Part shown: one piece after another, positions 41,631 through 57,888 of the stretch
How positions within the stretch are numbered: the first letter of the stretch is position 1
Layout of the letters: every line of letters begins with the position of its first letter
Origin: Nocardioides mangrovicus
Lineage (GTDB): Bacteria > Actinomycetota > Actinomycetes > Propionibacteriales > Nocardioidaceae
Length of the DNA stretch: 64,000 nucleotides
Direction: 5' to 3'
Assembly (NCBI RefSeq): GCF_003674065.1
Contig: NZ_RDBE01000010.1
Coordinates: forward strand, 183,649-247,648
Notes under the pieces: model-generated
Told to the model about the DNA's origin: nothing
Database searches by the model: none
The model's input: the letters and a program-made list of their open reading frames with translations, nothing else
Program-made: the position numbers and the translations under genes

Positions 41631-44600
41631 TCAGGCAGGTTTCAACGCCACCGTCCACATGATGGCCTTGTCGCTCGCGGAGTCCGTCGTGGCGGTGACG
41701 CCGCCAGCCGTACCGGCGCCAGCCGCCGCCGCGTCGGCGACCAGCATGCTGAAGCGTCCCGACGAGCCGGTGTCGTAGGCGCTGTCACGCGAGGTGACAC
41801 CCGCGGGGGGCGTCCAGGCCGCGACGGCCGTGGACTTGTCGGTCCACCAGGACACGATGCGATCCCCCGCAGCCGCGGTGACCGTGGGCGTGGTGTGCGA
41901 CGTCCCGCCCGCGTCGCCGATCACCGCGAAGGCGTCTACGGGGGCGCTCCCCGACGCATTGCGGTAGACCGCCAGGGACAGCACCGCCTTGCCGGCTGCC
42001 GACTTGGTCACCGAGACGGCGGAGCCTGCGTCCGAGCTACCGGCCGTCTTGCGCCACATCGTCGACGAGATGGTGCTGTTGGTCAGGGTGGAGACCTGGG
42101 TCCAGCCGCTGGGGGGTGACGTCCAACCCGCGCCTGCAGAGCTGGTGAGGACCAACAGCATGGTGTCGCCAGTCGTGACCGCCGCAGGGACCGTCACGGA
42201 CTTGGACGTCGTACTACCCGCCGCGGAGTGGGCGCTGCCCACGTAGGTCACTGCCTGCGCCGACGGGCTGCTCACCGTGACCTGCTGGGTGGTCGTGCCC
42301 GTGGCTCCGCCATTGTCGGTGACCGTCAGCTTGACCGCGTAGGTCGCAGCCGAGGAGTAGGCGTGGGTCGGCTTGGCGCTCGTGCTGGTTCCCCCGTCGC
42401 CGAAGTCCCACGACCACCCGGTGATCGTCCCGTCGGAATCGCTGGACGCCGAGGAGTCGAAGGTACAGCTCAGTGCGGTGCAGCTGGTGGTGTACGACGC
42501 CGTTGGGGCGGCGTTCTGTGCTGCCGCCTCCGGCTTCAGCGCGATGGTCCACATGATCGCCTTGTCACTGGAGGCATCGGTCGTCGCCGTCAAGGTGCCG
42601 TAGGCGCCTTGGGAGACCGGTCCATTGCTGTCGGCCGCCAGCAGGCTGAACCGACCCGAGCTCCCGGAGTCGTAGGCCACGTCACGCTGGGTGACCCCTT
42701 GCGGTGCGCTCCACGACGACACTGCAGCGGACTTGTCGGCCCACAGGGATACCACCGTCGCCCCGGACGGTGCGGTAATCGAGGGGGTGACGTGGCTGAA
42801 GCCACCGGCATCGCCGCTGACCGCCGAGGTGGGGATCGGCGTCGACGCCGAGACCCCGCGGTAGTCCAGCAGACCCACGCTGGCCTTGGCTGCCGCCGAC
42901 GAGGTGAAGCTCACGGTGCCACCGAGATCGCCCGCCGCCACCTGCTTGCGCCACAGCGTCGAGGTGATCGAGACGTTGGTGGTCGTGGCGACCTGGGTCC
43001 ATCCCGACCCAGGCCCGCTCCAGGTGGTCGTCTTCGAGGTGTTCAGCGTCAGCAGTATGGTGTCGCCGACCTTGGCGCCGGCGGGGACCGCTGCGGTCTT
43101 GGTGGTCGACGATCCCGCCGCGGAGTGGGAGGCGCCCACGAAGGAGACCTGCTGCGCGGTCGAGGCCACCGTGACCTGACGCGTCGTGGACGCCGAGGCT
43201 CCCTTGTCGTCGGTCACGGTGAGCGTGATCGCGTAAGAGCCCGCTGCCGAGTATGCGTGCGACGGGTTGACGCCGCTCGCAGTACCGCCGTCGCCGAAGT
43301 CCCAGCTGTAAGAGGCGATCGAGCCGTCCGTGTCGCTGGAGGCAGCCGCGTCGACCGCGCACCCGCCGTTGCTGCACGAGGTCGTGAACGAGGCCGTCGG
43401 CGGCTTGTTGGCCGCGGGGGAGGCGATGAAGAACATGGACTTGTTGGTCCAGTCGACCCCTCCGGTGGTGGGCCCGTTCACCAAGACCGGCGTTCCGGAG
43501 ACGGCGGTGCCGTCGAAGGAGACCTGGTACAGCCCGCCGTTGAGCTTGTTCACGTAGTAGAGGGTGTTGCCGGAGAGGAACATCCCGCCGGCGTTGGTGA
43601 AGTCGACGCTGCTGGAGACGACCTGCTCGGTGTTGTCGACGATGCCGCTGTCGGGTGAGAACCAGGCCGAGTACAACCGCGAGTCGCCGGTCATGGTGAA
43701 GTAGAGCCGCCCGCCGCTGTAGAACATCCCGGTCACCGAGGCGACCTGGCTGTAGAAGGTCGGGTTGTTGCCGTCGAAGGTCGTGCCGTCCTGAGAGTCG
43801 ACCGTGGCCCACGCCGGGTCGTGGTACGGGTTCACCGCGGTGGGCGAGCCGATCGAGCTGCCGTTGAGCGGGGCGACGTAGAGAGTCCCGTCGGTCGAGC
43901 CGTAGAAGAGCTTGCTGCCGACCGTGAAGGCGCCGCGGGTGTTGCGCCAGGGGATGCTCGTGCCGCTCACCGGCTGCGGCGTACCGGCGCTTGTCCCGTC
44001 GAAGGAGACCGACGTCAGCGAGTCCGTGGGGTCCGTGGGTGCCGCGACGTCCTGGTTGATGATCTCGATCCCGTTGACCAGCGGGTTCTCGGTCTCGTGA
44101 GCGAAGGAGATGTCGACCACGCCGTCGGTCGCCGTGGCGTCGAAGGCCTTCATGGTGCCGGTCTGGTCGCCCACGTCAGCGGCGATGTCGTAGTGGTCGA
44201 GAACCCGGGCGCCGTTGATGTCGACGTCGAAGACGCGCTGGCCCGCGCTGCCGGTCCCGGTGTAACGGTTCGCGAAGTAAAGCCTGACCTTGACGTGGGT
44301 CCCTGTGGCCACGGGGAAGCGATAGTCCATCTTCGGGTTGTCGCTGCCGCTCCACCGCTCGTGATCGAAGATCGCCGACGGGGTGCCGGCGGGCACCGTG
44401 GAGCTGACGGACGTGACCGGGTTCCAGTCGGCGGTCGAGGTCTGGCCGCTCAGGTACGGGCTCGGGCTGGCCGAGGAGTCGGCGGCCCAATCGGGCCCAC
44501 CGTCGGAGGAGGTGATGGCCGGGCCGCCGGCGTCCACGCGGTAGAGGACGTTGGTCGGCGAGTTCGAGGCGTACCTGCCCAGGTAGACAGTGCCGGGAAG

Positions 44601-45983
44601 CTTGCCCGTCGCCGTCGAGGCCAGCTGCGTGCCTCCGGAGTAGGGGAAGAAGGCGATCTTCTGACGCTGGTACTTGTAGTTGCCGATGTAGTTGTTGTCG
44701 TAGGCCATCCACAGGCCCTTGTCGGTGGCCAGGAGGGCGTAGACCGCCTTGCCGAGCGGCTTGTGTCCCGGGTTCCAGCTGTAGGGCCGGCCGCTCACCG
44801 GATCCAGTGCGGCCAGGCCCGGACGCGGCACGGCACCGGGCTGCGCCTGGTCCGACCCCAGCGGGTTGTTGTTCCAGCGGTTGTGGCCGCCGATGTAGAC
44901 GGCGTTGTTGGTGACGGTGACTCCCCAGACGGTGTCACCACCGGTCTGGTCGACCCACGTCGGCTGGATGTCGACGCCGGTGGCCCGCGTCTCGAACCGT
45001 GAGGTCGCATCGCACAGGCTCCCGGTGACTCCACCGCCGGTCGCGTTGACGACGAAGTAGGAGCTGTCCGGGGAGAAGGTGATCCCCCGTGTGTAGCCGT
45101 CGAAGGCCCAGTTGAAGCAGTACGGCGAGTACCGCGTGGTGGCCCAGCTGGTGTCGACCGCGGTCGAGGTCGAGTTGAGGTCGATCATGACGAGCTGGTC
45201 GCGCAGCAACCCGTCGGCGTACTTGAAGTTTCCCGTGACCACGAGCCTGGTGCCGTCGGGCGAGACGTCGAGAGCCCACGGACCGACGTATCCCTGCGCA
45301 CCGCTGCCCGTGTCGTTGTGGTGCCCGGTCAGCTGCTCGCTCACGTAGCCGTCCAGGGCACCGCTCGAGGCACTCATCGAGGCCAAGCCCTGACGGGTCG
45401 ACCCGTTGGCGGTGGTGAAGAACCCGCCCACGACCAACCGGCTGCCCGCCTTCGCCATGTCGCGGATGCCGCCGTAGTTGAAGGTGGGCGCGGTGAACGA
45501 GGACACGATGGCACCGGTCGAGACGTTCAGCAGCGTCAGGTACTTGACCGCCTTGCCGTTCACGCTGGTGAAGTCGCCCGCGACGTAGACCGAACTGGTG
45601 TCGGGCCCGGGCAGCACCGAATAGACCTGCCCGCCGCTCAGCGCAGGTGCGAAGGTGCTCGAGATCGCCCCGGTCGTCGCGTTGAACGCCGCGATCCCCG
45701 AGCGGGCCGTGCCGCCGACGGAGGTGAAGCTGCCGCCGATCACCATGACGTCGCCGACCTGGGCCGCGCTCCACACGGCGCCGTCGTCGACCTGCGGCGT
45801 GACAGCGGACGGGACCGCGCTGACCATGCTCGATTCCGTGGGCGGAGCAGGGGTGGAAGCCTGGTGCGCCACGGCCGGCGGAGCCGGCAGCGCAATGATC
45901 GCCCCGAGGATTGCGATGGCCACCGCGACCAGCGCAGCTGTGACTCTGTTCAACATCGTGCGCACGTCCAGCCCCCCGGCCAT
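41631..45983 (-). CDS. Giant secreted protein: propeller, malectin-like and two PKD modules
   Basis: 1450 aa. Signal peptide in the first 40 residues. Residues about 65-430 carry repeated G-G/D-F-T-S-V-G/N-G units (GGSFTSVGG, GDFTSVNG, GGFFTTANG, GNFKYADG), likely a beta-propeller. A malectin-like carbohydrate-binding domain follows (about 500-650, VRLYFANRYTGTGSAGQRVFD split in family style), then a second propeller-like region. The C-terminus is a duplicated module: PKD (SYSWDFGDGGTASG and GWSWDFGDGGTSTS) plus a domain of about 200 residues ending SDKAIMWTxALKP. It is probably a cell-surface or matrix glycan-binding protein of the exopolysaccharide. Confidence 0.82.
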   Translation of the reverse strand: MAGGLDVRTMLNRVTAALVAVAIAILGAIIALPAPPAVAHQASTPAPPTESSMVSAVPSAVTPQVDDGAVWSAAQVGDVMVIGGSFTSVGGTARSGIAAFNATTGAISSTFAPALSGGQVYSVLPGPDTSSVYVAGDFTSVNGKAVKYLTLLNVSTGAIVSSFTAPTFNYGGIRDMAKAGSRLVVGGFFTTANGSTRQGLASMSASSGALDGYVSEQLTGHHNDTGSGAQGYVGPWALDVSPDGTRLVVTGNFKYADGLLRDQLVMIDLNSTSTAVDTSWATTRYSPYCFNWAFDGYTRGITFSPDSSYFVVNATGGGVTGSLCDATSRFETRATGVDIQPTWVDQTGGDTVWGVTVTNNAVYIGGHNRWNNNPLGSDQAQPGAVPRPGLAALDPVSGRPYSWNPGHKPLGKAVYALLATDKGLWMAYDNNYIGNYKYQRQKIAFFPYSGGTQLASTATGKLPGTVYLGRYASNSPTNVLYRVDAGGPAITSSDGGPDWAADSSASPSPYLSGQTSTADWNPVTSVSSTVPAGTPSAIFDHERWSGSDNPKMDYRFPVATGTHVKVRLYFANRYTGTGSAGQRVFDVDINGARVLDHYDIAADVGDQTGTMKAFDATATDGVVDISFAHETENPLVNGIEIINQDVAAPTDPTDSLTSVSFDGTSAGTPQPVSGTSIPWRNTRGAFTVGSKLFYGSTDGTLYVAPLNGSSIGSPTAVNPYHDPAWATVDSQDGTTFDGNNPTFYSQVASVTGMFYSGGRLYFTMTGDSRLYSAWFSPDSGIVDNTEQVVSSSVDFTNAGGMFLSGNTLYYVNKLNGGLYQVSFDGTAVSGTPVLVNGPTTGGVDWTNKSMFFIASPAANKPPTASFTTSCSNGGCAVDAAASSDTDGSIASYSWDFGDGGTASGVNPSHAYSAAGSYAITLTVTDDKGASASTTRQVTVASTAQQVSFVGASHSAAGSSTTKTAAVPAGAKVGDTILLTLNTSKTTTWSGPGSGWTQVATTTNVSITSTLWRKQVAAGDLGGTVSFTSSAAAKASVGLLDYRGVSASTPIPTSAVSGDAGGFSHVTPSITAPSGATVVSLWADKSAAVSSWSAPQGVTQRDVAYDSGSSGRFSLLAADSNGPVSQGAYGTLTATTDASSDKAIMWTIALKPEAAAQNAAPTASYTTSCTALSCTFDSSASSDSDGTITGWSWDFGDGGTSTSAKPTHAYSSAATYAVKLTVTDNGGATGTTTQQVTVSSPSAQAVTYVGSAHSAAGSTTSKSVTVPAAVTTGDTMLLVLTSSAGAGWTSPPSGWTQVSTLTNSTISSTMWRKTAGSSDAGSAVSVTKSAAGKAVLSLAVYRNASGSAPVDAFAVIGDAGGTSHTTPTVTAAAGDRIVSWWTDKSTAVAAWTPPAGVTSRDSAYDTGSSGRFSMLVADAAAAGAGTAGGVTATTDSASDKAIMWTVALKPA

Positions 45984-46050
45984 CGACTAATCTTCAGCGC
46001 GAGAACTGTGACACCGCGAAGGGCCACGCGAGGGCGCCGGAGCGATACAT

Positions 46051-46063
46051 CTGAAATGTCCAG
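46051..46063. promoter_or_regulatory. TGGACATT-type motif between the PKD-protein and sulfotransferase genes
   Basis: Reverse strand reads CTGGACATTTCAG; the same word occurs at 41531 and 55657. It lies in the divergent region, 68 bp from the PKD-protein start and 28 bp from the sulfotransferase start. Regulatory meaning is conjectural. Confidence 0.25.
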
Positions 46064-46090
46064 CTAATGGGTCTAGACCAGGGTGCGCCG

Positions 46091-46987
46091 ATGACTGATG
46101 ATCCTCGCTGGAACCGTCAACGACTGCGCTCAGCCGTACCGCGTCCGTTGCGCCCGGCGGTCCGTACCGTCTTCAAGTCCACAGCCCGAGCGACCAGCAG
46201 CTGGCGGATGAGGCCGTCGTTCCTGGTCATCGGGGGGCAACGCTGCGGCACGACGACGATCTTCAAGGTGCTGTCGCAGCACCCGCAGCTGGCGCGGCCC
46301 CCCGTGGAGAAGGGCACCGACTACTTCACGCTGCACTACTCGCGCGGCATGTCGTGGTACCGATCGCAGTTCTCGTTGGCCGCAACCGCTCGAGCACGCG
46401 CGTACGGGCACGGCGACGCGGTGGCCTTCGAGGCCTGCACCTACTACCTCTTCCACCCGCTGGCGATCCCGCGGCTGGCCAACGACCTGCCCGACGTCAA
46501 GCTGGTGGCCATGCTCCGCGACCCGGTGGAGCGTGCCTACTCCGCCTACAAGCACGAGTTCGCTCGTGGCTTCGACGTGGCGGACACCTTCGACGAGGCG
46601 CTGGAGCTGGAGGACAGTCGGTTGGAGGGCGAGGTGGAACGCATCCTCGCCGACCCCGACTACGAGTCCATTCCCCATCGCCACCACGCCTACCGTCGTC
46701 GCGGCCAGTACGCGGAGCAGCTACGGCGGGTGCTGGACCACTTCCCGCGAGAACAACTGCACGTGATGGACAGCGAGCTGTTCTTCGCCGACCCGCAGCG
46801 CGAGCTGGCCGACCTGCTGGGTTTCCTGGGCCTCGAGGCATGGTCGCCGGGGTCCATCGAGCAGCACAACGCCCGTCCCGGCACCTCGATGTCGCCTCAG
46901 GCGAGAGCACGTCTCACCGAGCACTACGCCTCGCACGACGCAGAGTTGGCGCAGCTGCTGGGCCGTCAGCCGGGCTGGCGCTCCTGA
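46091..46987 (+). CDS. PAPS-dependent sulfotransferase
   Basis: 298 aa from ATG 46091 with AGGGTG 7 nt upstream; ATG 46067 would add eight residues and lacks a binding site. The 5'-phosphosulfate loop FLVIGGQRCGTTTIFKVL lies at about 44-61 and the 3'-phosphate site is LRDPVERAYSAYKHEF, with a catalytic-region His in YRRRGQYAEQLRR. It transfers sulfate from PAPS to a hydroxyl, here probably a sugar of the exopolysaccharide. There is no signal peptide, so it acts on cytoplasmic lipid-linked precursors. With two sulfatases in the same window, sulfated glycans appear important to this organism. Confidence 0.88.
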   Translation: MTDDPRWNRQRLRSAVPRPLRPAVRTVFKSTARATSSWRMRPSFLVIGGQRCGTTTIFKVLSQHPQLARPPVEKGTDYFTLHYSRGMSWYRSQFSLAATARARAYGHGDAVAFEACTYYLFHPLAIPRLANDLPDVKLVAMLRDPVERAYSAYKHEFARGFDVADTFDEALELEDSRLEGEVERILADPDYESIPHRHHAYRRRGQYAEQLRRVLDHFPREQLHVMDSELFFADPQRELADLLGFLGLEAWSPGSIEQHNARPGTSMSPQARARLTEHYASHDAELAQLLGRQPGWRS

Positions 46988-47808
46988 ACCACCGTCTCAC
47001 GCGGCGACACCCTCGCCCCCGGTCCGAGCACACGGGCGACCGAGGTCATCAGCAGCAGACCGAGCACACCGAAGACGAGTCCCCCGACGACATCGGTCAG
47101 CCAGTGCTCGAGGTTGTAGGTACGCGCATAGGCCTGGACGGTGGCCAGCACGGCGAGAACCGACCAGGTGGCGAACCACGCCCGGCGCTCGCGCGTGCCG
47201 GTTGCGACGGTGAATAGGTAGAGCACCAGCCCGTAGACGATGAGGACCCGCGCGCAGCCACCGGAGGGGAAGGTTCCCAGCGTGGTGGGCGGGTGGCCAC
47301 GATGCACGACGTCTTGCAGGACAATCTGCAGGTGCTTCTCCAAGACGTACCCGGAGAACAGCAGCGCCGGTGGCACCCACCAGGACCAACCCCGGCGCCA
47401 CCACACGAGCGCAAAGCCGATGGCCGCGACCAGGTCGACCCCCTGGGCGATGCGGGGTTTGCCGATGTTGGTCAGGTGCTGCCACAAGGTGGACCACCAG
47501 CCGTCGACCTGGCGCGCCTGGAACCAGCCGAACGCGGGTCGGTCGACCAGCTGCTCCAGAGCGTGGGCAAGCTCCCCCAGCGGCCACAGCACGACGACGA
47601 GAGCGGCGGCCCCGGCCAGGTACACGATCAGCGCGGTGATCGCCGCTCCCCACTGACCCACCGCCGCACTCACGACGACCGCGGTGCGCTGACGCGCCCG
47701 AGTAGCCCGAGCGGGGGGATCGAGGACGGGGGCGCGAGCCGTCAGGGCGGCTCCCGCCCCCACGACCACGGCGAACCACGCCAGGCACACGACGACGGCA
47801 CCGTTCAT
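46966..47808 (-). CDS. PAP2-family membrane phosphatase-like protein with altered motif 2
   Basis: 280 aa from ATG 47808 with GGAGGTCGGG before it. About six membrane helices. PAP2 motif 1 is KHLQIVLQDVVHRGHP. Motif 2 reads FPSGGCARV, with Gly in place of the usual catalytic His of PSGH. Motif 3 is ARTYNLEHWLTDVVGG with the nucleophile His and Asp kept. The change could lower or alter activity. In this locus it may process undecaprenyl diphosphate or transfer phospholipid groups. Its 3' end overlaps the convergent sulfotransferase gene by 22 bp. Confidence 0.8.
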   Translation of the reverse strand: MNGAVVVCLAWFAVVVGAGAALTARAPVLDPPARATRARQRTAVVVSAAVGQWGAAITALIVYLAGAAALVVVLWPLGELAHALEQLVDRPAFGWFQARQVDGWWSTLWQHLTNIGKPRIAQGVDLVAAIGFALVWWRRGWSWWVPPALLFSGYVLEKHLQIVLQDVVHRGHPPTTLGTFPSGGCARVLIVYGLVLYLFTVATGTRERRAWFATWSVLAVLATVQAYARTYNLEHWLTDVVGGLVFGVLGLLLMTSVARVLGPGARVSPRETVVQERQPG

Positions 47809-47899
47809 CCCGACCTCCGTTTCGACGGCCCCAATCGGCTCATTTCGGCTATGGGTCCTGCGCAGAACGCATAGCGTAAGGGCTGGTCTGGAGGTGGCG

Positions 47900-50398
47900 A
47901 TGGGTCTACGGCAAGCGGCGGGCACGACGATGTCCCGCCACGAGCCGCGGCTGCTGCTCCCCCCGGGACCGACCGGCGTCTCCGCCGCGATCGACCGGGT
48001 CCGGCGCCGTGCGCGCGCCTCGCGGCACCGCCCCGAGTGGCCCCTCGCCGCCCTGTTCGTGGGATTCCCGCTGTGGTGGGCGCTGGGCGTGGTCCAGGTC
48101 GCCTACCTGATCTTCAGCGCAATGATGGCCTGGCGGATGCTTCAGCGCAGGACGCTCGCGAGACCTCGCGGCCTCGGCGTCTGGCTGCTCTTCGTCGTGT
48201 GGTCCCTGGCGGGGATCGCCGTCCTGCAGGTGCTCGTGCCGAACTCGGTACCGGGCGACAACAACAACCGCTACCTGCTGTGGGGGTTGCGCTGCCTCGG
48301 CTACGCCGAGGTCAGTGTTGTTCTGCTCTACGTCAGCGATCTCTCGCGCCGCATCGACCGCGTCCGCGTGTCGCGGGCACTCGCGCCCATGTTCGTGACG
48401 ATCGTCCTCGGCGGTCTCGCCGGCAGCGCCGCCGGGGCCCTGCCCCTGCGCTCGCTCACCGAGGTGCTGCTCGGACCGGTCCTGCCCGCCAACGCGTTCC
48501 TCACCTCGCTGATCCACCCGGTGCTGGCAGATCGGCACGTCTACCTGGGCGCGGTCACCTATCGGCCCAGCGCGCCCTTCCCTTACGCGAACGAGTGGGG
48601 CCTGAACTTCGCTGCCTTCCTCCCCTTCTTCGTCCACGCCTGGCTACGGCGAGACGCCGGGTGGCGGCGGGTGGCGGGCCCGGTCCTGCTCCTCGTGAGC
48701 CTGGTCCCAGTCGTCTACTCCTCGAACCGAGCGCTGTGGGTCGTGCTGATGGCGATGGCCGCACTCGCGGTGGGCACGTTCTGGCGATCCTTCAACATCC
48801 GTGTCGTGCTCGCAGCGGGGACGCTCGTCGCCGTCGCACTGGTAGCGGTCGTCGTCTCGCCCTTGGGGACAGCCGTCGCCGACCGCCTGGACGGGCACAA
48901 CAGCAACGCCGGACGGGCGCGACTCACTGCCACCTCGATCGAGGGCCTGGTTCACAGCTCGCCCGTGGTGGGAGCCGGAGCGACCCGGCGACCCGCCGGC
49001 GGCTCGTACTCGATCGCCGCCGGGAACTCGACGACCTGTCCGACCTGCCTGCCGCCCTCGTTCGGCACCCAGGGCGTCTTGTGGTCGGTGCTGTTCACCA
49101 CCGGTTTCGTGGGTGCACTGCTCTTCGTGGGCTTCTTCGTCTCGGTGCTGTGGCGCCACCGGCGACAGCGAGCCGCAGCCGACCGCGCGGCCCAGCTGAG
49201 TCTGGTGGCGTTCTTGGCTACCTGTCCGGTCTACGACTGGAGCATCCCGACCGTGGTAGCGGTCATGGCCGCGGTGGGCTTGCTGGCCGGAGGGGATGTG
49301 GTCTCCTCCCGACCGGTCGTACGGCCTGCTGCCAGGTTGGTCTTACCGGTGATGGTGACCGGCGCGCTCGGCGGTCTGGTCGCTTTCGGCCTCGCGGGAG
49401 GCACCACCTACACCGCCACCGCCTCGGTCTATCTGCCGGACACCACGGCGGCGGGCGGTGCGACCATCGACCAGACGCTGGACAACGAGGCCCAGTACGT
49501 CCACAGCCAGACCGTGAGCCGAGCCGTCGCCGCCGCCACCGGCCATCGCCCGGTCACAGGGCCGGTGGTCACAGCGCAGCCGAACAGTCGGATCCTGCTC
49601 GTCCGGTACGCCGCTCCCGACGCCGCGCGGGCAGAGGCCGCGAGTAGACGCGCGGCAGCCGTGCTGCTCGCCGATCTCACCGGCAGGCTGGAGCGGGACC
49701 GCCGGATTACCGAGGCGCTCCTCCGTCAGCAGGCCCGGACCGCCGCCGGTCAGATCACCACCCTCAACGATATCGGCGGACTGGGGGTGCCCGGCTCCAG
49801 CTACTCGCTGGTCCAGCGCTCCGCGGTCATCTCGCAGCTGTACCAACTCGAGCAGAGCAGGAGCGCCGAGCTCACCACCGGAGTGTCGGGCCGGGTGACG
49901 GGTGTCGCGACCGGGGTACTTCCCCAGCGTCGGCAGACTTTCGTCGTGTCCGGCGCGATGCTGGGCCTGCTTCTCACCTGTTGCCTGGCCGTTCTCGCGG
50001 ATGTCCTCCCCGTACGCACCAGAACGCGTCGGCTCGCTTGCGGTGGGTCGCTACTGGGCCTCCCGCAGGTACAGGTGGTCGCCGGCCGCGCGGACCCGTG
50101 GTCGGCGCGCGAGCAGCTCCGACCGGGGCCGGCCGAGTTCGTCGGGGCCGACCACAATGACGTGGAGGGTCGCGCGGTTGCTGCGGCACTCCGCGCCGAC
50201 GTCAGGCGGACGGAGGGGCCGTTTCCGGCAGCAACCAGAGACCTGGTCCTCGTATCATCTGAGGAGACCTCCTGGCGCGTTCTTCGCCAGGCGCACCATC
50301 GGTGGCGGAGCAGCGGGTGGAGCGTCGTCGGCCTGGTGCTGGTCCTCCATCCTCACCGGCGTCACGTCCGGACCAACCCGTACAGGGAGCTGCGTTGA
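47900..50398 (+). CDS. O-antigen-polymerase/ligase-like protein fused to a Wzz-like chain-length domain
   Basis: 832 aa from ATG 47900 with GGAGG 5 nt upstream. Residues about 45-460 are a polytopic membrane domain with 11-12 helices and the large loop between HPVLADRHVYLGAV and SSNRALWVVLMAM, then GAGATRRPAGGSYS, in the manner of O-antigen polymerase/ligase (Wzy/WaaL-like). Residues about 475-680 look like a Wzz domain: a membrane segment, TYTATASVYLPD, then a long helical region (AAVLLADLTGRLERDRRITEALLRQQA) and a second membrane segment near 695. The fusion is unusual. The TTG start of the next gene overlaps its stop. Confidence 0.75.
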   Translation: MGLRQAAGTTMSRHEPRLLLPPGPTGVSAAIDRVRRRARASRHRPEWPLAALFVGFPLWWALGVVQVAYLIFSAMMAWRMLQRRTLARPRGLGVWLLFVVWSLAGIAVLQVLVPNSVPGDNNNRYLLWGLRCLGYAEVSVVLLYVSDLSRRIDRVRVSRALAPMFVTIVLGGLAGSAAGALPLRSLTEVLLGPVLPANAFLTSLIHPVLADRHVYLGAVTYRPSAPFPYANEWGLNFAAFLPFFVHAWLRRDAGWRRVAGPVLLLVSLVPVVYSSNRALWVVLMAMAALAVGTFWRSFNIRVVLAAGTLVAVALVAVVVSPLGTAVADRLDGHNSNAGRARLTATSIEGLVHSSPVVGAGATRRPAGGSYSIAAGNSTTCPTCLPPSFGTQGVLWSVLFTTGFVGALLFVGFFVSVLWRHRRQRAAADRAAQLSLVAFLATCPVYDWSIPTVVAVMAAVGLLAGGDVVSSRPVVRPAARLVLPVMVTGALGGLVAFGLAGGTTYTATASVYLPDTTAAGGATIDQTLDNEAQYVHSQTVSRAVAAATGHRPVTGPVVTAQPNSRILLVRYAAPDAARAEAASRRAAAVLLADLTGRLERDRRITEALLRQQARTAAGQITTLNDIGGLGVPGSSYSLVQRSAVISQLYQLEQSRSAELTTGVSGRVTGVATGVLPQRRQTFVVSGAMLGLLLTCCLAVLADVLPVRTRTRRLACGGSLLGLPQVQVVAGRADPWSAREQLRPGPAEFVGADHNDVEGRAVAAALRADVRRTEGPFPAATRDLVLVSSEETSWRVLRQAHHRWRSSGWSVVGLVLVLHPHRRHVRTNPYRELR

Positions 50399-52239
50399 CC
50401 ATCTCACCACCTCGTGACGCCTTCGCCAGCGCCGAGCTGCTCCGCATCGCGCTGCGTCGCCACCGTCTCTTCGTGGTCTCACTCGCCCTTGCGGTCGCCG
50501 TCTTGGGAGCCGGCCTCGCGGCCCTTCGGCCCACCCCCTTCCGCTCGACCGTCGACGTCCTGATCAAGCCCGTGGTCGGCGCCGCCTTCTCCCCGGACAC
50601 CACCGGCAACGCTCAGCAGGTCACGGTGGGCCTCGAGACGGAGTCGCACCTCGTCGGAGATCCGCAGGTCGTCGCTTTGCTCGGGCGCTCCTTGCGATCC
50701 GCCGTGGACGATGGTCGAGTCGACATTTCCACCACGCTGCTGACCAACAGCCAGATCCTCGCCATCACCGTCAACGGATCGACGCCGGCTCGCGCGAGAG
50801 CCAACGCCACGGCGGTGGCCCGGGCTTACCTACTGTCCCGGGGTCGCCAGGCCACCCAGGTACGCGACCAGCAGGTGTCGGGCCTCGACAAGCAGATCAT
50901 CGCTACCCAAGCGCGCTTGGCGGCCGCCTCCAGCGCCAGCTCCGACGACAAAGCGGACGCCACTGTCCAGCTCCTCGCGACCCGTCTGACCAGCCTCCAA
51001 AGCGCCCTGGGCAGTGCGCAGGCCGTCGCTACGGCACCGGGCAAGGTCGTCAGTCCCGCCAGTGTGCCGTCTCGCTTCAGTCCCTTGAGCTACCTCGTGG
51101 GTGCGATCGTGGGCGCCATCATCGGCGTCTTGCTGGGTCTCGCCCTCGCGCTGCGACGCGCCCGGCGCTTCGACGAGTTCGACATCGACGCCACCTCTAC
51201 CCTGGGTGTTCCCCGCTGGGGGTTCCTCGGCGACCGCAGTGCCAAGCGGAGCGCACTCCTGGTCAACCAGGACGCCGACTCCTCATCGCGTGAGGCCATG
51301 CGCCATCTGCGGATGCTCCTCGCAGCGGGCCGTGAGCTACCCGGCGTCGTGGCGGTGAGCAGCCGCGAGCCCTTCGCACCGCTTTCGGCGATCGCGGTCG
51401 ACCTGGCCACCTCCCTGGCCGATGCCGGGTACGACGTCACGCTGGTCGACGCCGCCATCGACGACCCGCGGGTGGCAGGGCTCGTGCAGCATCCCGAGGT
51501 TCCGGGCGTGGCCGACCTGCTGCGCCACCAGCGCCAGCGCGTGCTGCCGTCCAGCGCCTTCGCCAACATCCAGGTCGTGACGGCCGGCACGTCTCCTGGA
51601 GAGGTCCGCGACCTGTACTCGGGCTACCAGCTGCGAGCGGCGTTGGACAGAGAGCGCAAGAAGCGCGACCTCGTCCTGCTGGTCACCCCGCCGCTGTCCT
51701 CGGCGACCGGGATCAGCGTGGCGAGCGCGGCGGACACCGTGCTCCTCATCGTCGACCGCGACCGCGACCGCTATCGCTCGATCGTGGCCACTATCGAGCA
51801 GATCAAGCGTTCGGGGGTTGCCGTGGGGGGGTTGGCCTCGGCACGCCACCTGGAGTCCCGCGCGGCTCACGCTGCGCAGGAGATCGCGACCACCCCCCAG
51901 TCATCTGCTCCGCCGATCGCCGAGCCGGGTTCGGCGGGAGACCAGACCGGGATCGCCGGCGAGCCCTCACCCGACGCCGCTACCACCGATGCGGAGCCCA
52001 GCGAGGCTACGCAGCAGACTCCGGTGGATGCGGCCGGAGCCGATGCCGAGCCGGTTCCCGAACCGGCGGGTGTCGACGGCGAGGAGGTCCGCGCCGGCAC
52101 CACCGAGCAAGCCGCGGGCCCGTCGGCGCCATCGAACTCCTCACCGCAGCGCGCGACCGGTCGCCGCTCGCGTCGCACCGACCCGAAGCCCACCGACGCC
52201 GAGACGAGCAGCTCCAGTTCGGTGCGCTCGTGGCTCTGA
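50395..52239 (+). CDS. Wzz/BY-kinase-like protein with degenerate nucleotide site
   Basis: 614 aa from TTG 50395 (4-bp TTGA overlap). Membrane helices near 24-45 and 230-250 bracket a coiled periplasmic Wzz region (STVDVLIKPVVG, RDQQVSGLDKQIIATQARLAA). The cytoplasmic part has the CpsD/CapB fold, but Walker A is lost (SREPFAPLSAIAVDLA with no Gly-Lys-Ser/Thr). Walker A' survives as VTLVDAAIDDP, and Walker B is altered (LLVTPPLSSATGIS). No Tyr-rich tail; instead about 130 residues rich in Ala/Pro/Glu end in basic RRSRRTDPKP. It probably works as a structural chain-length regulator, not a kinase. Confidence 0.78.
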   Translation: MTISPPRDAFASAELLRIALRRHRLFVVSLALAVAVLGAGLAALRPTPFRSTVDVLIKPVVGAAFSPDTTGNAQQVTVGLETESHLVGDPQVVALLGRSLRSAVDDGRVDISTTLLTNSQILAITVNGSTPARARANATAVARAYLLSRGRQATQVRDQQVSGLDKQIIATQARLAAASSASSDDKADATVQLLATRLTSLQSALGSAQAVATAPGKVVSPASVPSRFSPLSYLVGAIVGAIIGVLLGLALALRRARRFDEFDIDATSTLGVPRWGFLGDRSAKRSALLVNQDADSSSREAMRHLRMLLAAGRELPGVVAVSSREPFAPLSAIAVDLATSLADAGYDVTLVDAAIDDPRVAGLVQHPEVPGVADLLRHQRQRVLPSSAFANIQVVTAGTSPGEVRDLYSGYQLRAALDRERKKRDLVLLVTPPLSSATGISVASAADTVLLIVDRDRDRYRSIVATIEQIKRSGVAVGGLASARHLESRAAHAAQEIATTPQSSAPPIAEPGSAGDQTGIAGEPSPDAATTDAEPSEATQQTPVDAAGADAEPVPEPAGVDGEEVRAGTTEQAAGPSAPSNSSPQRATGRRSRRTDPKPTDAETSSSSSVRSWL

Positions 52240-52291
52240 CTCGGACCGACCGCGGGCACGCGAGGCGCTCATCCGGGTCCGGGTCCGGCCG

Positions 52292-53500
52292 ATGACCTCA
52301 GCCGACGGCGTCGACGGCTACCTGGAGCTGGTGCTAGGGGCACTGTGGCCCGGCCGCAGCGTCCTGCGGGTGCCTCCTGCGCGACGCAGGGCCCCCGGCG
52401 AGACGGCCCTGATCCCTCTGCCCCACCACCGAAACCCGCGACTGCTCGTCCCCGAGGGGCCCCCCGCCGCCAGTGCCGCAGCAGTGCGGAACTTCAACAC
52501 CTTCACCACGGGTCTGACCCGCGCGAAGTCGCAGCTCGCGGCCGCCGGCGTGCGCGCCGGTGCGCTGCGGTGGGCGCCATCGCGCTTGCTCCTGCGGGGT
52601 GAGGAGCCGGGTATCGACGCCTACCTCTCGCAGGTTCTCGGTTTGCCCGTCCAGGTGGCGCTCTACATCGGACCACGGCGTGCGGTGCAGAAGCCGGTGT
52701 TGCAGGTCATCGACCCCTCGGGGCACACGATCGGGTTCGCCAAGGTGGGCATCAACGAGCTCACCCGACGCCTAGTGAGGCGGGAAGCGGACGCGCTGCG
52801 CGCAGTCGCCACCCACGACACGCGGGTCCTACGGGTGCCGGACATCGTGCACGCGGGGGTCTGGGAGGGTCACGAGCTGCTAGTGCAGGAGGCGGTACCG
52901 CCCGGTCGCTCCCGCGCCGCAGTGCGGCGATGGCTCCCCGAGGCGACCGCCGAGGTCGGACGTATCGAGGGAACCACCTGGTCTGCGTGGCCCGCGAGTA
53001 CCTACCGCCGAAGGCTGGGCCAGCGACAGCGGGCTCTTGTCTCCCATCCGTGCGCTCCGCTGCTCACCGCGGCGCTCGATCTCGCCGATCGGGTGGTGGG
53101 CACCGACGCGGTCGAGTTCGGGTGCAGCCATGGCGACTGGGCGTCTTGGAACTTCACCGCGAACGACGATTACCTGGTGGCCTGGGACTGGGAGCACTTC
53201 GCGCGTGACGTGCCACTGGGGTTGGACGCGGTGCACCACGACATCGCCGAACGGACCGCGCTGCGCGGACTCAGACCGGCCGCAGCCTTCGCAGACCTCG
53301 TCGGCGACCTGCCCACCGCTCTGACCGGAACGATGGTGGGCGCGTCCGCAGCCCCGCGCGCCGTGGCCCTCTATGTCGTGGAGATCCTGACCCGGTACCT
53401 GGAGGACGACGAGGCCCGCAACGGGACCACGGCGATGAGCAGGGTCTCCGACTGGGTACCACCGACCCTGGGCCTCTTGGCCGGCAGCGCGACGCGATGA
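52292..53500 (+). CDS. Aminoglycoside-phosphotransferase/choline-kinase-like protein
   Basis: 402 aa from ATG 52292. The C-terminal half carries the APH catalytic loop CSHGDWASWNFT (Asp and Asn, near 285) and AWDWEH (metal Asp), and the N-lobe has IGFAKVGINELTRRLVRREADALR with Lys and Glu. The first 130 residues are unlike antibiotic kinases. In an exopolysaccharide gene row between the chain-length gene and the flippase (4-bp overlap with the latter), a role in phosphorylating a sugar or polyol precursor is more likely than resistance (inference). Confidence 0.72.
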   Translation: MTSADGVDGYLELVLGALWPGRSVLRVPPARRRAPGETALIPLPHHRNPRLLVPEGPPAASAAAVRNFNTFTTGLTRAKSQLAAAGVRAGALRWAPSRLLLRGEEPGIDAYLSQVLGLPVQVALYIGPRRAVQKPVLQVIDPSGHTIGFAKVGINELTRRLVRREADALRAVATHDTRVLRVPDIVHAGVWEGHELLVQEAVPPGRSRAAVRRWLPEATAEVGRIEGTTWSAWPASTYRRRLGQRQRALVSHPCAPLLTAALDLADRVVGTDAVEFGCSHGDWASWNFTANDDYLVAWDWEHFARDVPLGLDAVHHDIAERTALRGLRPAAAFADLVGDLPTALTGTMVGASAAPRAVALYVVEILTRYLEDDEARNGTTAMSRVSDWVPPTLGLLAGSATR

Positions 53501-55059
53501 CCTCCAGCCCGCCCACGACCTCGACGTCGCACGACGGCGTCAACCTGACGCGAGTTGCGCGGTCCTCGGCCGTCACGCTGCTCGGCGCCGCCGTGTCTGC
53601 CATCGCGACCTTCGCCCTCACCTTGGTCGTGGCCAGGGGCACCGACCAGGTCACCGCGGGCGTCTTCTTCAGCAGCACGGGGGTCTTCGTCATCGCCGCC
53701 GCGGTGTGCGGCCTGGGCACGGACGCCGGTCTGGTGTACTTCCTCTCCCGGGCCCGCCTGCGGGGCCGTGCCGATGAGATCCCCCAGCTGATGCGAGCCG
53801 CGCTCGAACCCATCGTCGGGTGCGCCCTGGTCGCCGGTGTGATCATGTTCGCCTGCGCCGGTCCCCTCGCCAAGATCATCAGCCGCGACGCCGCCGCGCA
53901 GACCGCCGAGGCGCTGCGGGTGCTGGCGCCCTTCTTGGTGTTCTCGGTAGCGCTCAGCGCCTTGCTCGCCGCGGCTCGGGGCTTGCGCACCATGCGTCCC
54001 TACGTGGCCCTCGAGCAGATCGGACGCCCCACCCTGCAGCTCCTGACCGCTGCGCTGCTGCTGCTGCTGCCGGTGAGTCTGTCGCTGCCGTGGGCGTGGT
54101 CGCTGCCCTACGTCGTGGTCTGCGGCGCCGCGGTGGCGTGGTGGCGACGGGCGCTGCCGGGCCTCCACGCGCACGACAACAGGCCGGACAATCGGCCGGA
54201 CAACAGGCCGGATAGTGTCCGTGGCCCGCTGTGGCGCTTCACAGCACCTCGAGCGGTGTCGAGCATCGCACAGATTCTGATGCAGCGTCTTGACGTCGTC
54301 CTCGTCGCTGCGCTGGCCGGCGCCGCTCCGGCTGCGGTCTACGCCGCCGCGACCCGGTTCGTTGTGCTGGGTCAGCTGGCCCGCAACAGCGTCTCGCTGG
54401 CGGTGCAGCCCCACCTCGCCGACACCTTGATCAGCCGCGATATCCATGGCGCTCGATCGCTCTACCGCACCTCGACCGCCTGGCTGATGTGCACCACCTG
54501 GCCGCTGTTCTGCACGCTCGCTGTGGCCGGGCATCAGCTCCTGCAGATCTTCGGTCGTGGATACGGGGTGGCCGGACCCGTGCTGGTGATGCTGGCGCTC
54601 GCGATGATGGTGGCCACGCTCTGCGGGGACGTCGACGTGCTGCTCATCATGAGCAGGCGAACCTCGTGGAGCATGTGGAACATGCTCGTTGCCGTCGTCT
54701 TGAATGTCGGGCTCGACGTGTGGCTCATTCCCGCGCTCGGGGTCAACGGGGCAGCGTTGGGCTGGTCGGTGGCGATCGTCGTGCGCAACCTGCTGGCGCT
54801 GGCCCAGGTGCGGATCGCGCTCGGGATCCAGCCGCTGGGCCGTGAGACCGGCTACGTCGCCGCACTGAGCGTCAGCTGTTTCGGGCTCATCTCCTGGGCG
54901 GCGATGCGGCTGGCGGGCTCGGGCTGGGGTGCGCTGGCTGTTGGTCTCGTGCTCGGCGCTGCCCTCTACGCTGCCGGCCTGTATGCGGCTCGCACCCAGC
55001 TACACCTCGACGAGTTGGTGCCCTCGCGCCAACGCGGGAGGGTCAGCCGAACCGCTTGA
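53497..55059 (+). CDS. Polysaccharide flippase (Wzx/MurJ-like, MATE superfamily)
   Basis: 520 aa. About 14 hydrophobic helices, starting TLLGAAVSAIATFALTLVVAR. It has MOP/polysaccharide-synthase features such as VFFSSTGVFVIAAAVCGLGTDAGLVYFLSRAR near 55-85 and a late GVNGAALGWSVAIVVRNLLAL. It would carry undecaprenyl-linked repeat units outward for the polymerase encoded two genes upstream. The central loop contains a 3 x 4-residue tandem repeat (DNRP), encoded by three 12-bp units at 54175-54210. Convergent with the acyltransferase, overlapping by 17 bp. Confidence 0.88.
   Translation: MTSSPPTTSTSHDGVNLTRVARSSAVTLLGAAVSAIATFALTLVVARGTDQVTAGVFFSSTGVFVIAAAVCGLGTDAGLVYFLSRARLRGRADEIPQLMRAALEPIVGCALVAGVIMFACAGPLAKIISRDAAAQTAEALRVLAPFLVFSVALSALLAAARGLRTMRPYVALEQIGRPTLQLLTAALLLLLPVSLSLPWAWSLPYVVVCGAAVAWWRRALPGLHAHDNRPDNRPDNRPDSVRGPLWRFTAPRAVSSIAQILMQRLDVVLVAALAGAAPAAVYAAATRFVVLGQLARNSVSLAVQPHLADTLISRDIHGARSLYRTSTAWLMCTTWPLFCTLAVAGHQLLQIFGRGYGVAGPVLVMLALAMMVATLCGDVDVLLIMSRRTSWSMWNMLVAVVLNVGLDVWLIPALGVNGAALGWSVAIVVRNLLALAQVRIALGIQPLGRETGYVAALSVSCFGLISWAAMRLAGSGWGALAVGLVLGAALYAAGLYAARTQLHLDELVPSRQRGRVSRTA
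54175..54210 (+). repeat. Three tandem 12-bp units in the flippase gene
   Basis: Units GACAACAGGCCG, GACAATCGGCCG, GACAACAGGCCG encode DNRPDNRPDNRP in a cytoplasmic or periplasmic loop. The in-frame length (multiple of 3) allows copy-number change without frameshift. Confidence 0.85.
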
Positions 55060-55642
55060 CGATATCGGCCGGGTTGCCCGAGACGACGACCCTCGGGGGC
55101 ACCGAACCCCGCACGACGGCGCCGGCGGCCACGACGCTGTCGGAGCCGACCGTCGACCCCTTCAGGAGTAGGGCGCGAAGGCCCACCCAGACGTTGTCGC
55201 CGATCTCCACCGGCGCTCGAGTCGCGGACAGGGGGGGACGGTGGCGGTCCTCAGGACGCAGGTTGTGGTAATCGGTGTCGGTGATGCCGCAATCGGAGAT
55301 CAAGCACTCCCGGCCGATCGTCACCTGCTCCTGGGCGATCAACCAGCACCCGTTGAGCAGCGTGTCGGAGCCCACGGTCACGGTGCCGCCACCCTTGACC
55401 GACAGACCCCGCACTCTCACCCGTGCACCCAGCTCGACCCGCGTGCCGTGCTTGATCCGAAGCGGGCCCAAGATCATGACACCCTCACCGAGGGTGAGCG
55501 AGCGATAGCGAGCGGTGTACCAGCGGCGTCGCAGGGCGAACACCACGCCGACCGCCACCCGCGTCGGCCCGTTCAGCTCCCGCACGTCGATGACCCTAGC
55601 CGACCCGGCGCTCGCGTCACGGTCCGCCGCGAAGCACATCAT
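55043..55642 (-). CDS. Hexapeptide-repeat O-acetyltransferase
   Basis: 199 aa. Left-handed beta-helix repeats run from about residue 55 (MILGPLRIKHGTRVELGARVRV) through VEIGDNVWVGLRALLLKGSTVGSDSVVAAGAVV near 140-175. The likely catalytic His sits in the DTDYHNL loop, typical of the LbH-MAT-like/WcaF sugar acetyltransferases. It probably acetylates an exopolysaccharide sugar with acetyl-CoA. The exact start is uncertain: two ATG codons are adjacent (55642 and 55639) and no good binding site is seen. Confidence 0.85.
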   Translation of the reverse strand: MMCFAADRDASAGSARVIDVRELNGPTRVAVGVVFALRRRWYTARYRSLTLGEGVMILGPLRIKHGTRVELGARVRVRGLSVKGGGTVTVGSDTLLNGCWLIAQEQVTIGRECLISDCGITDTDYHNLRPEDRHRPPLSATRAPVEIGDNVWVGLRALLLKGSTVGSDSVVAAGAVVRGSVPPRVVVSGNPADIVKRFG

Positions 55643-55821
55643 GGGAAACGTGCTAATTGGACATTCAGTCGATAAAGGAAAGATGTCGGACGGTCTAGGT
55701 GAAAAGTCCGATTAACCCGTTAAGTCCGCCCATCCGGCGGATATTCAACCGCAACAACTCCTGATTTACTGAGGGTGAACATGGGGTTGTCACAAGTGAT
55801 TCAACGGGGGGTTTAGCAGCC
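55643..55821. promoter_or_regulatory. AT-rich divergent region between the acyltransferase and glycosyltransferase genes
   Basis: 179 bp of markedly lower GC. It holds the TTGGACATTCAG word (55657-55668), two near copies of AAGTCCG and a small dyad TCCGCC/GGCGGA (about 55725-55741). It probably contains the promoters for both genes; no -10/-35 pair can be fixed with confidence. Confidence 0.4.
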
Positions 55822-56892
55822 ATGACCACGACACGCACGTCCGACCTTCGCATTCCTCGGCAGCGGGCCGGCAGCAGTCGAGTCGACCAGGTCTCGGTTC
55901 CGCGGCCGAAGCCTACGGGCCCGGCCATCACGACGGGTCCGCGCACGTTGATGGTCGCTGCGACCGGCGGTCACCTGGAGCAGCTCTTCCGGTTCACCAG
56001 CCGCTTCGCGCCTGCCAGCGGCCAGGTGGAGTGGGTGACCCACGACGACCCGCAGTCGCAGTCCCTCCTCGCTCACCAGAAAGTGCATTTCATTCCATAT
56101 GTCCCACCTCGAGGGTGGCGTGAGATTTTGCGGACGGAGCCGCAGGCCCTTTCCATCCTGCGTCAGGGCCGTTTCGACCGGGTCGTCTCCACTGGCGCCG
56201 GCGTGGCTATCCCCTTCGTCACCACCGCCCGCATGCTGGGCATCCCGTGTCACTACATCGAGAGCGCGGCGCGTGCCGATGGTCCCAGCCTCACCGGCCG
56301 CGTGATGCAGCGGACCCCCGGGGTCAACCTGTACTCCCAGTACTCGCGCTGGTCCGATGACCGGTGGTCCTACCGGGGCTCGCTGTTCGACAGCTTCCGG
56401 GCGCGACCCGTGGCGGCCAGAGCGCCGCGCCGCGTCGTGGTCACGCTCGGCACGATGCGCGCCTACTCTTTTCGTCGCGCGGTCGACCGGCTCATCGACA
56501 TCCTTCCCGCGGTCCTGGCCCCGGACGCCGAGGTGGTGTGGCAGGTCGGCGCGACGGACCCCGGAGGTCTGGCAGGTGACGTCCGGGTCAGCCTCGCCAA
56601 CGCCGAGCTGCGTGCTCTCATCAGCTCGGCGGACCTGGTGATCGCCCACGCCGGCATCGGCTCGGCCCTGACGGCCCTCGAGCTGGGGTGCCGCCCCGTG
56701 CTGCTCCCTCGGCGGGCCGCCCACCAGGAGCACGTGGACGACCACCAAACCCTCATCGCCCGTGAGCTGGACAGTCGCGGGCTGGCCATCTCACGTGAGG
56801 CCGACCTGGTCACCGCTGACGACCTGCTGGCCGCCACGGCCGCACGCGTGGACCTGAACCAGGCACCCGCTCCGTTCTCGCTGAGGTCCTGA
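55822..56892 (+). CDS. Fused PssD/PssE-type (Alg14/Alg13-like) glycosyltransferase
   Basis: 356 aa. After about 40 disordered residues, the N-terminal half (TLMVAATGGHLEQLFRFTSRF to SQYSRW) matches the membrane-anchoring Alg14/PssD part. The C-terminal half (RRVVVTLGTMRAYSFRRAVDRL, then LISSADLVIAHAGIGSALTALELGCRPVLLPRR with the donor-binding HAGIGS loop) matches the Alg13/PssE catalytic part. In most species these are two genes; here they are fused. It likely adds an early sugar to the lipid-linked repeat unit. Co-directional with the GT2 gene, 6 bp apart. Confidence 0.83.
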   Translation: MTTTRTSDLRIPRQRAGSSRVDQVSVPRPKPTGPAITTGPRTLMVAATGGHLEQLFRFTSRFAPASGQVEWVTHDDPQSQSLLAHQKVHFIPYVPPRGWREILRTEPQALSILRQGRFDRVVSTGAGVAIPFVTTARMLGIPCHYIESAARADGPSLTGRVMQRTPGVNLYSQYSRWSDDRWSYRGSLFDSFRARPVAARAPRRVVVTLGTMRAYSFRRAVDRLIDILPAVLAPDAEVVWQVGATDPGGLAGDVRVSLANAELRALISSADLVIAHAGIGSALTALELGCRPVLLPRRAAHQEHVDDHQTLIARELDSRGLAISREADLVTADDLLAATAARVDLNQAPAPFSLRS

Positions 56893-56898
56893 GGGGAG

Positions 56899-57888
56899 AT
56901 GGTCGTGTCACAGCCGACTCACCACGGTCCACAGCTGGCCGAGCACCCCAGGGACGACAACAGGGACGACACCACGGCGTGGCCGAGCGTCTGCGTGGTC
57001 ATCCCAACCCACAACCGACCCGAACTCGTACGCGCGGCCATCGCCTCCGTGCTCGGGCAGGACTATGCGGGGACCATCGAGATCGTGGTGGTCTTCGACC
57101 GGTCTGAGCCCGACCACACCCTGGCCCGCCAGGGCGACGATCGCGCGGTCCGGGTCATCCACAACGTCCGGACACCCGGGCTGGCCGGATCGCGCAACAG
57201 CGGCATCCTCAGCGCACGGGCAGACATCGTCGCCTTCTGCGACGACGACGACCAATGGCTGCCGCTCAAGCTCTCCCGGCAGGTGAGCCTCCTGCAGACC
57301 TCCCCCGACTGCGAGATGACCAGCACGTCCATCGTGATCGACTTCGAGGGGCGCTCGATCGTGCGCCTCGCCGGCCAGGATCGGGTGACCTACGCCGAGC
57401 TGCTGCGCTCGCGCAAGTCGATGCTGCACTCATCCGGCTTCGTGTTCCGGCGCGACGCACTCATCGAGGGGATCGGCCTCATCGACGAGGACACGCCGCG
57501 GAGCATGGCCGAGGACTGGGACATCCTGCTGCGAGCGGCCCGCCGCCGTCCCATCCTCCACATCGACGAGCCGCTCGTACGGGTCCGCTGGGGGCCGACC
57601 TCCTTCTTCGCCAACGACTGGCAGGTGCGCAACGAGGCCAGGCTGTGGATGCTGGCGCACCACCCGGACATCGCCCGCGACCGGAAGGGCTTCGGCCTGA
57701 CCCACGGCAAGCTGGCGTTCGGGCACGCGATGCTGGGGCAACGCCGGCAGGCGGTGCGCGAGGCCCTGCTCGCCGCGTCGCGCAACCCGCTCGAGCCGCG
57801 CCTCTACCTGGCCCTGCTGGTCGCCGCGCGGGTCTTGCCCGGCCAACGGGTGGTCAACGCGCTGAACCGCCGCGGTCACGGGATCTGA
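56899..57888 (+). CDS. Glycosyltransferase family 2
   Basis: 329 aa with GGGGAG just upstream of ATG 56899. GT-A fold: VCVVIPTHNRPELVRAAIASVLGQDY near 32-57, VFDRSEPD, GLAGSRNSGILSA (acceptor helix), AFCDDDDQW (DxD metal site near 117) and the base region MAEDWDILLRA. A tail of about 90 residues follows, helical and not membrane-spanning. It adds a sugar to the exopolysaccharide repeat unit. The last gene of the island; convergent with the YbjN gene after 34 bp. Confidence 0.9.
   Translation: MVVSQPTHHGPQLAEHPRDDNRDDTTAWPSVCVVIPTHNRPELVRAAIASVLGQDYAGTIEIVVVFDRSEPDHTLARQGDDRAVRVIHNVRTPGLAGSRNSGILSARADIVAFCDDDDQWLPLKLSRQVSLLQTSPDCEMTSTSIVIDFEGRSIVRLAGQDRVTYAELLRSRKSMLHSSGFVFRRDALIEGIGLIDEDTPRSMAEDWDILLRAARRRPILHIDEPLVRVRWGPTSFFANDWQVRNEARLWMLAHHPDIARDRKGFGLTHGKLAFGHAMLGQRRQAVREALLAASRNPLEPRLYLALLVAARVLPGQRVVNALNRRGHGI

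Follow-up and report, generated by a model that had tools for sequence, protein, structure and literature searches.

Fusion of a putative Wzy polysaccharide polymerase with a short Wzz co-polymerase domain in Nocardioides mangrovicus and its relatives

Introduction

In a stretch of 64,000 nucleotides from Nocardioides mangrovicus (Actinomycetota, family Nocardioidaceae; NCBI RefSeq assembly GCF_003674065.1, contig NZ_RDBE01000010.1, positions 183,649 to 247,648 of the forward strand; here called the window, with positions counted from its first letter), a single gene appears to encode, as one covalent chain, a polysaccharide polymerase (Wzy) and a short co-polymerase (Wzz) of its own. The initial annotation of this DNA, based on the letters and their open reading frames, had noted a polymerase/ligase and a Wzz-like region in one frame of 832 amino acids (aa), an observation confirmed here by domain profiles and by the finding of 22 other loci with the same fusion. 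In known Wzy/Wzz systems, as described in the relevant passages of PMC12004945 and PMC10030265, the polymerase, a polytopic protein whose outer side bears two large loops, works in a complex with a co-polymerase of two helices, and the same parts are recognized in the window. However, the known partners are separate proteins present at approximately eight Wzz to one Wzy (PMC10030265), whereas in the window they form one chain accompanied by a second, free Wzz.

The fused gene

The reading frame is uninterrupted on the + strand from a GTG start at 47894 to 50398 and comprises 834 codons. Counted from the ATG at 47900 the product has 832 aa, and the sequence GGAGG at 47890-47894 ends five bases upstream of this ATG, which is the likelier start of the two. 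Thirteen fused proteins from the 22 other loci were aligned over their full length and are 30-36% identical to the window protein; the alignment of these 14 proteins, the window's included, is referred to as A1. In the host genome of 4.1 Mb the fused protein used as a query matches only itself at E 1 or better. The GC content of the window is 71%. An artefact of frame or assembly was considered and is ruled out by the recurrence of the fusion at the 22 other loci. The parts of the gene are the following.

47900..50398, + strand: fused Wzy-Wzz gene (open frame, GGAGG before the ATG, same fusion elsewhere)
48038..49288, + strand: Wzy/O-antigen-ligase-type polymerase domain, residues 49-465, with 12 predicted transmembrane (TM) helices and both ends cytoplasmic (PF04932, hydropathy, charge pattern)
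48434..48580, + strand: large loop that follows helix 5 (residues 181-229), predicted to face outward; R224-P225 invariant (A1, charge pattern)
48860..49060, + strand: large loop that follows helix 9 (residues 323-389), predicted to face outward; R331, S337, R341, R365, C382 and C385 invariant (A1, charge pattern)
49289..49321, + strand: interdomain linker, predicted cytoplasmic (alignment, charge pattern)
49298..49300, + strand: possible internal GTG start at residue 469, preceded by GGAGG at 49289-49293; a free Wzz could arise from it
49322..50005, + strand: short Wzz domain made of TM1, an alpha/beta domain with a long helix, and TM2 with invariant G691 (hhalign, Foldseek, AlphaFold topology, alignment)
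50006..50395, + strand: tail after TM2, possibly a shrunken BY-kinase remnant (alignments A1 and A6, weak hhalign)

The polymerase domain

The Wzy_C profile PF04932 matches residues 265-412 of the window protein with E 0.012 and 15.8 bits, which is below the Pfam cut-off of 31.7. Among 30 aligned polymerase domains (alignment A7) the same profile is found at E 0.01 or better in 23, the best value being 8e-11. The helix limits were set from hydropathy and a full-length AlphaFold model of low confidence (mean predicted local distance difference test, pLDDT, of 39), and the positive-inside charge pattern over the 14 aligned fused proteins fits 12 helices with the N- and C-termini inside: the mean number of Lys and Arg residues is 1.8-4.2 in the short inner loops and the linker vs. 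0-1.0 in the short outer loops. According to the review PMC12004945, known Wzy proteins have 10-14 TM helices, and their two large outer loops, called PL3 and PL5, occupy the positions of the loops predicted here after helices 5 and 9. The loop motif appears in that source as RX10G or RX15G, the two motifs given there not being identical. In the first large loop the invariant R224 and G236 of the 14 fused proteins have RX11G spacing; exact RX10G was not seen, and R331, R341 and R365 of the second loop lack that spacing in the window protein. A sequence search of the PDB with the 30-row polymerase profile gave no match up to E 10. The N-terminal domain is probably a polymerase rather than a ligase.

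The Wzz domain

Two hydrophobic segments, residues 477-500 and 681-704, bracket a domain of approximately 180 residues and delimit with it a polysaccharide co-polymerase (PCP) domain at approximately 477-704. When the C-terminal parts of the 14 fused proteins (alignment A2) were compared by hhalign with 18 free Wzz proteins from the same kind of cluster (alignment A3), the score was 99.9%, with E 9.6e-32 for that single comparison, and the control comparison of A2 with the polymerase alignment A7 gave 0.6%. A hidden Markov model (HMM) built from the 18 free Wzz proteins, with no fused protein included, matches the C-terminal part of the window protein over nearly its full length (53.8 bits, E 3e-15). 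In sequence searches of the PDB, A1 retrieved PslE (0.0012) and Wzc (0.45) and nothing else up to E 1, and A2 alone retrieved PslE (0.087 and 0.11), Wzc (2.1) and one unrelated adhesin (3.9). Of the NCBIfam chain-length models, TIGR01006 is found in three of the 14 fused proteins (best 0.0015), and TIGR03007 and TIGR03017 in one each. The Pfam Wzz family PF02706 matches two of the 14 fused C-termini at E 1 or better (best 0.0022); the window's own Wzz domain gave no match to it in a search at E 1.

In the AlphaFold model of the C-terminal part the elements follow each other in the order TM segment, strand, two helices, two strands, a helix of approximately 50 residues, helix, strand and TM segment. 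A Foldseek search of the PDB with this model gave 710 matches at E 10 and 30 at 0.001, the best being WzzE with 3.3e-5, and every one of the best 50 of the 710 belongs to a WzzE, WzzB-type, KpsE or Wzc entry; KpsE is a PCP as well. The full-length model was kept out of the fold searches on account of its low confidence. With VIA-align the picture is less distinct: the PCPs reach Z 9.8 and unrelated HMG-CoA reductases Z 10.1; over approximately 100 residues the scores of HMG-CoA reductase and MoaC are similar to those of the PCPs, which is taken as a shared alpha/beta arrangement. The Wzz domain is present with both membrane segments in all 14 aligned fused proteins. The initial annotation depended on a Wzz fold being predicted for the C-terminal part, and such a fold was obtained by hhalign, AlphaFold topology and Foldseek; its proposal that one protein combines a polytopic domain of Wzy/WaaL type with a domain of Wzz type is borne out. 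By these comparisons the C-terminal part is a complete Wzz/PCP domain, which, by analogy, would form rings and control chain length.

The downstream Wzc-like gene

The second Wzz gene, with a BY-kinase-like domain, was also correctly anticipated directly downstream.

50395..52239, + strand: free Wzz with a BY-pseudokinase domain (PCP-2a, Wzc-like; profile A3, of free Wzz with the kinase-like domain, matches Wzc at 1e-40)

Its possible TTG start at 50395 overlaps the TGA stop of the fused gene (50396-50398) in the string TTGA. The term BY-kinase-like needs to be qualified: the protein is Wzc-like, but the Walker A/P-loop GK[ST] is absent from it, as from 56 of the 57 Wzc-like proteins found in the locus stretches (this one counted among the 56), and there is no Tyr among its last 25 residues (at most two in any of these proteins). 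Its sequence suggests that the protein is probably a pseudokinase, and this form seems to be the rule among the Wzc-like proteins of these clusters. PCPs with a pseudokinase domain have been described before, and their discoverers propose a scaffold role for them; in EcpK/EpsV and HfsA/HfsB, as presented in the sections of PMC12004946 that deal with them, the kinase motifs are absent as they are here. The window differs from these systems in that the pseudokinase PCP is paired with a short Wzz fused to Wzy.

Distribution and origin of the fusion

Matches to the fused protein were found in 46 of the 149 genomes sampled from the family, 67 of 293 from the order, 58 of 296 from the class and 8 of 198 from the phylum (own genome included, samples overlapping). 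With four HMMs 80 loci were classified, namely the window, stretches from 38 of the 45 family genomes with a match (the host genome apart), 40 loci from the wider samples, and locus L031; the remaining matches of the four samples, those in seven of the 45 family genomes among them, stand outside these architecture counts. The fusion is present in 23 of the 80 loci, the window included, and 57 are unfused. All but one of the fused loci (22 of 23, window included; two rows identical) belong to the family of the window, and the other, L031, comes from a metagenome-assembled genome labelled Pseudonocardiales; this label, like the 71% GC of the window, points to an actinobacterial origin.

The polymerase tree unites the 23 fused loci with 31 unfused ones, their nearest unfused relatives, in a single group of 54 rows (support 92). 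Within this ingroup a separate short, kinase-free Wzz is encoded in all 31 unfused loci, always on the strand of wzy and, where that is the + strand, at a distance of 0.7-2.2 kb past wzy; no separate short Wzz was found in any of the 23 fused loci within the stretches read around the locus. A Wzc-like Wzz is also present in all 31 unfused loci and is kept as a free protein in all 23 fused ones, in 14 of them within the first stretches and in nine within extended flanks (L082-L085, L184-L188). To judge from these gene contents, the fused domain takes the place of the separate short Wzz, because the latter is separate in 31/31 unfused and 0/23 fused loci and the Wzc-like protein is kept throughout. 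The Wzz tree places all 23 fused domains together with 30 of the 32 short Wzz on one side and the Wzc-like proteins on the other (Shimodaira-Hasegawa-like approximate likelihood ratio test, SH-aLRT, 87); the branch of the window's Wzz domain is long, with 1.83 changes per column. Among 26 more distant loci mostly one Wzz is seen in the stretch, and L057 has none.

The trees require two changes; in that of the polymerase four fused loci (the window and L031-L033) stand apart from the other 19. Still, a single clade of fused loci is not rejected (approximately unbiased test, p-AU 0.078). The trees and gene contents suggest that the fusion arose once or twice, by loss of a gene boundary in a set of Wzy, short Wzz and Wzc-like Wzz.

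The junction and the C-terminal tail

The linker is longer in the aligned family, 23 residues on average. A start codon preceded at suitable spacing by AGGAGG, GGAGG or AGGAG is found in the linkers of four of the 23 fused genes (the window, L040, L046 and L168), at differing positions; a conserved internal start for a free Wzz was consequently not found among the 23. Such sites are denser in the linker than in the polymerase part, which has two in all and a different codon make-up. The GGAGG and in-frame GTG at the junction (49289-49300 in the window, and in L040, L046 and L168) are perhaps a relic of a former gene start.

A comparable tail after TM2 is found in the window protein and in L031, L032 and L033 only, and in the other ten proteins of A1 the chain stops shortly beyond TM2. 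The match of the window tail to the kinase region by hhalign is weak (52.8% over 41 columns), and the tail may be a shrunken BY-kinase domain.

Possible mechanism

In the complex reported in PMC10030265, approximately eight WzzE were measured per WzyE and Wzy lies in the membrane lumen of the ring, according to the part of that report dealing with stoichiometry. We favour a mixed co-polymerase ring, with the polymerase brought in by a single fused subunit and the other subunits provided by the free Wzc-like pseudokinase protein, and put its probability at roughly 0.55. One Wzy per Wzz chain could hardly build a ring of about 8:1 on its own, and the free Wzz is kept in all fused loci; these two points together are what favours the mixed ring. 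The C-terminus of Wzy would be cytoplasmic, so that the chain could continue directly into TM1 of Wzz, pass along the outer side of the membrane and return to the inside by way of TM2. One fused chain would then contribute one ring subunit together with the polymerase, because Wzz works as a ring of about eight around one Wzy, and the Wzc-like protein, encoded by the next gene in the window, would provide the remaining subunits. Every ring would be built around a tethered polymerase, and the role of the pseudokinase domain in ring assembly would be that of a guiding scaffold, with no phosphorylation involved. The initial annotation had expected a fixed ratio of polymerase to length regulator to be built in. 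This holds in part: each polymerase is tied 1:1 to the Wzz domain of the same chain, but the free Wzc-like Wzz retained in the 23 fused loci and the ratio of about 8:1 measured elsewhere do not allow the 1:1 ratio to be extended to the regulator as a whole.

A stricter form, which we regard as tentative, is a ring built from two Wzz paralogues, with the polymerase covalently attached to one subunit and no more; one polymerase per ring would be set by the fusion together with the amount of Wzc-like Wzz, and the GTG and GGAGG at the junction could even yield some free short Wzz from the window gene.

Several points weigh against the mixed ring and the assignments on which it depends. The ring is itself inferred, and its stoichiometry is taken by analogy from one distant Gram-negative system, as given in the portion of PMC10030265 cited above. 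The model of the C-terminal part has a mean pLDDT of 54.9, and two of the four rows in its input alignment are Wzc-like neighbours, which may bias it towards a PCP; the full-length model, made from two fused rows alone, has nearly the same order of elements at a poor mean pLDDT of 39. The split in the Wzz tree is moderate (87, in a quick tree), and the short Wzz of L174 and one of the two of L177 fall on the other side. In the count of 31 against none, genomes that are related to each other enter as independent cases, and some of the stretches stop near the gene (L032, L033). Finally, in L035, L043, L048 and L050 the Wzc-like Wzz is encoded approximately 6-8 kb away on the opposite strand, which means that co-translation is not general.

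The last observation, that fused and free Wzz genes can sit on opposite strands, would also suit a different arrangement, in which the fused protein assembles by itself into a low-order oligomer that has one polymerase for each Wzz domain and lies outside a classical ring or does without one, and the Wzc-like protein serves some other purpose, for example export or gating. Short and Wzc-like Wzz are largely apart in the Wzz tree, and their functions may accordingly differ. We nevertheless consider such an oligomer unlikely: a ring of eight would need eight 12-helix polymerases, and the known lumen holds about one, by the description in PMC10030265.

It is also conceivable that the N-terminal domain is a ligase of the WaaL or O-glycosylation-ligase type that moves finished chains to an acceptor, the Wzz part coupling length to transfer. 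PF04932 bears the name of O-antigen ligase, a family that includes polymerases too; the only NCBIfam match of the window protein is TIGR03097, a putative O-glycosylation ligase (2.4e-5, below cut-off); and the polymerase could instead be encoded by another Wzy_C frame of 462 aa, which is found on the same contig outside the window, at a distance of approximately 17 kb. Against this, the fused gene is the sole PF04932 match inside the 64-kb window and stands beside a flippase and glycosyltransferases, the large loops predicted after helices 5 and 9 are as in Wzy, and the corresponding wpsJ of Actinoplanes missouriensis is read as Wzy by its authors, in what PMC13390465 says of that gene. A ligase is in our estimate quite improbable. 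Lastly, the long branch of the window's Wzz domain, its lack of a Pfam Wzz match and the single Wzz of many more distant relatives might suggest a structural anchor or evolutionary leftover without length control, all regulation being left to the Wzc-like protein, yet the retention of the domain with both membrane segments in 14/14 aligned fused proteins, with G691 invariant, makes this very doubtful.

The gene cluster and the rest of the host genome

The fused gene and the Wzc-like gene belong to a cluster in which the following further genes were recognized.

46067..46987, + strand: sulfotransferase (Sulfotransfer_1 2e-14; relatives in 30 of the 39 other stretches)
52268..53500, + strand: kinase-like (APH-type) protein, start approximate and name by weak similarity (relatives in 26 of the 39 other stretches; weak Fructosamin_kin match, 0.18)
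53497..55059, + strand: Wzx-type flippase (MatE 4e-10, Polysacc_synt 1e-7, MurJ 3.3e-7)
56899..57888, + strand: family-2 glycosyltransferase (GT2; PF00535 3.9e-24)

The kinase-like protein has no Pfam match at 0.001. The cluster also holds a GT28-type glycosyltransferase, a hexapeptide acyltransferase (55043-55642) and a GH26-like enzyme. A PAP2 phosphatase (46966-47925, - strand) lies antisense between the sulfotransferase and the fused gene; neither this phosphatase nor the acyltransferase has relatives at E 1e-5 in the 39 other stretches. On the - strand at 41631-45983 a protein of 1450 aa is encoded with malectin, PKD and beta-propeller-like (Rax2, DUF5122) domains, and its relatives (28-51%) adjoin many related clusters. 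The GC content at third codon positions is approximately 0.83-0.92 in the cluster genes (about 40300-57900) vs. approximately 0.94-0.98 in many, not all, of the flanking genes, a difference that hints at a separate history for this block.

Elsewhere in the host genome (L090) a 330-aa frame with a weak Wzz match (6269-7258) is followed by a separate Wzy_C protein of 485 aa (7194-8648), which seems to be a conventional pair of separate Wzz and Wzy. A PF02706 search of the host genome at E 1 pointed to four places, none of them above the cut-off: the gene downstream of the fused one and three others.

The kinds of genes found here are shared with the wps-1 cluster of A. missouriensis, namely Wzx, Wzy (WpsJ), Wzz (WpsK), GT2, GH26, sulfotransferases and the kinase-like WpsI, as listed in the description of that cluster (PMC13390465); the comparison is by gene content as its authors describe it, not by sequence. 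In the same description Wzy and Wzz of wps-1 are separate and one Wzz is named, whereas in the window Wzy is fused to a second, short Wzz. Its authors predict a sulfated exopolysaccharide, by their account an unverified product, and report that deletion of wpsJ or of wpsK each led to abnormal sporangia (PMC13390465, passages on product and mutants). By analogy, the product of the window's cluster is probably a sulfated exopolysaccharide of the wps-1 kind.

Significance

No paper on a natural Wzy-Wzz fusion was found in the open-licence PMC literature, absence from which is no proof. The setting of chain length and the number of Wzz per Wzy have so far been inferred from complexes of separate proteins. 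A covalent Wzy-Wzz that occurs naturally speaks strongly for a direct partnership, and it fixes which ends meet; moreover, a fused polymerase cannot lose its regulator on purification. The occurrence of the same type of locus with the short Wzz either separate or fused makes a clean comparison possible, and it is suggested that many such systems may carry two different Wzz per polymerase. In this group, which appears to be actinobacterial, the fusion offers a natural handle on how polymerase and length regulator cooperate.

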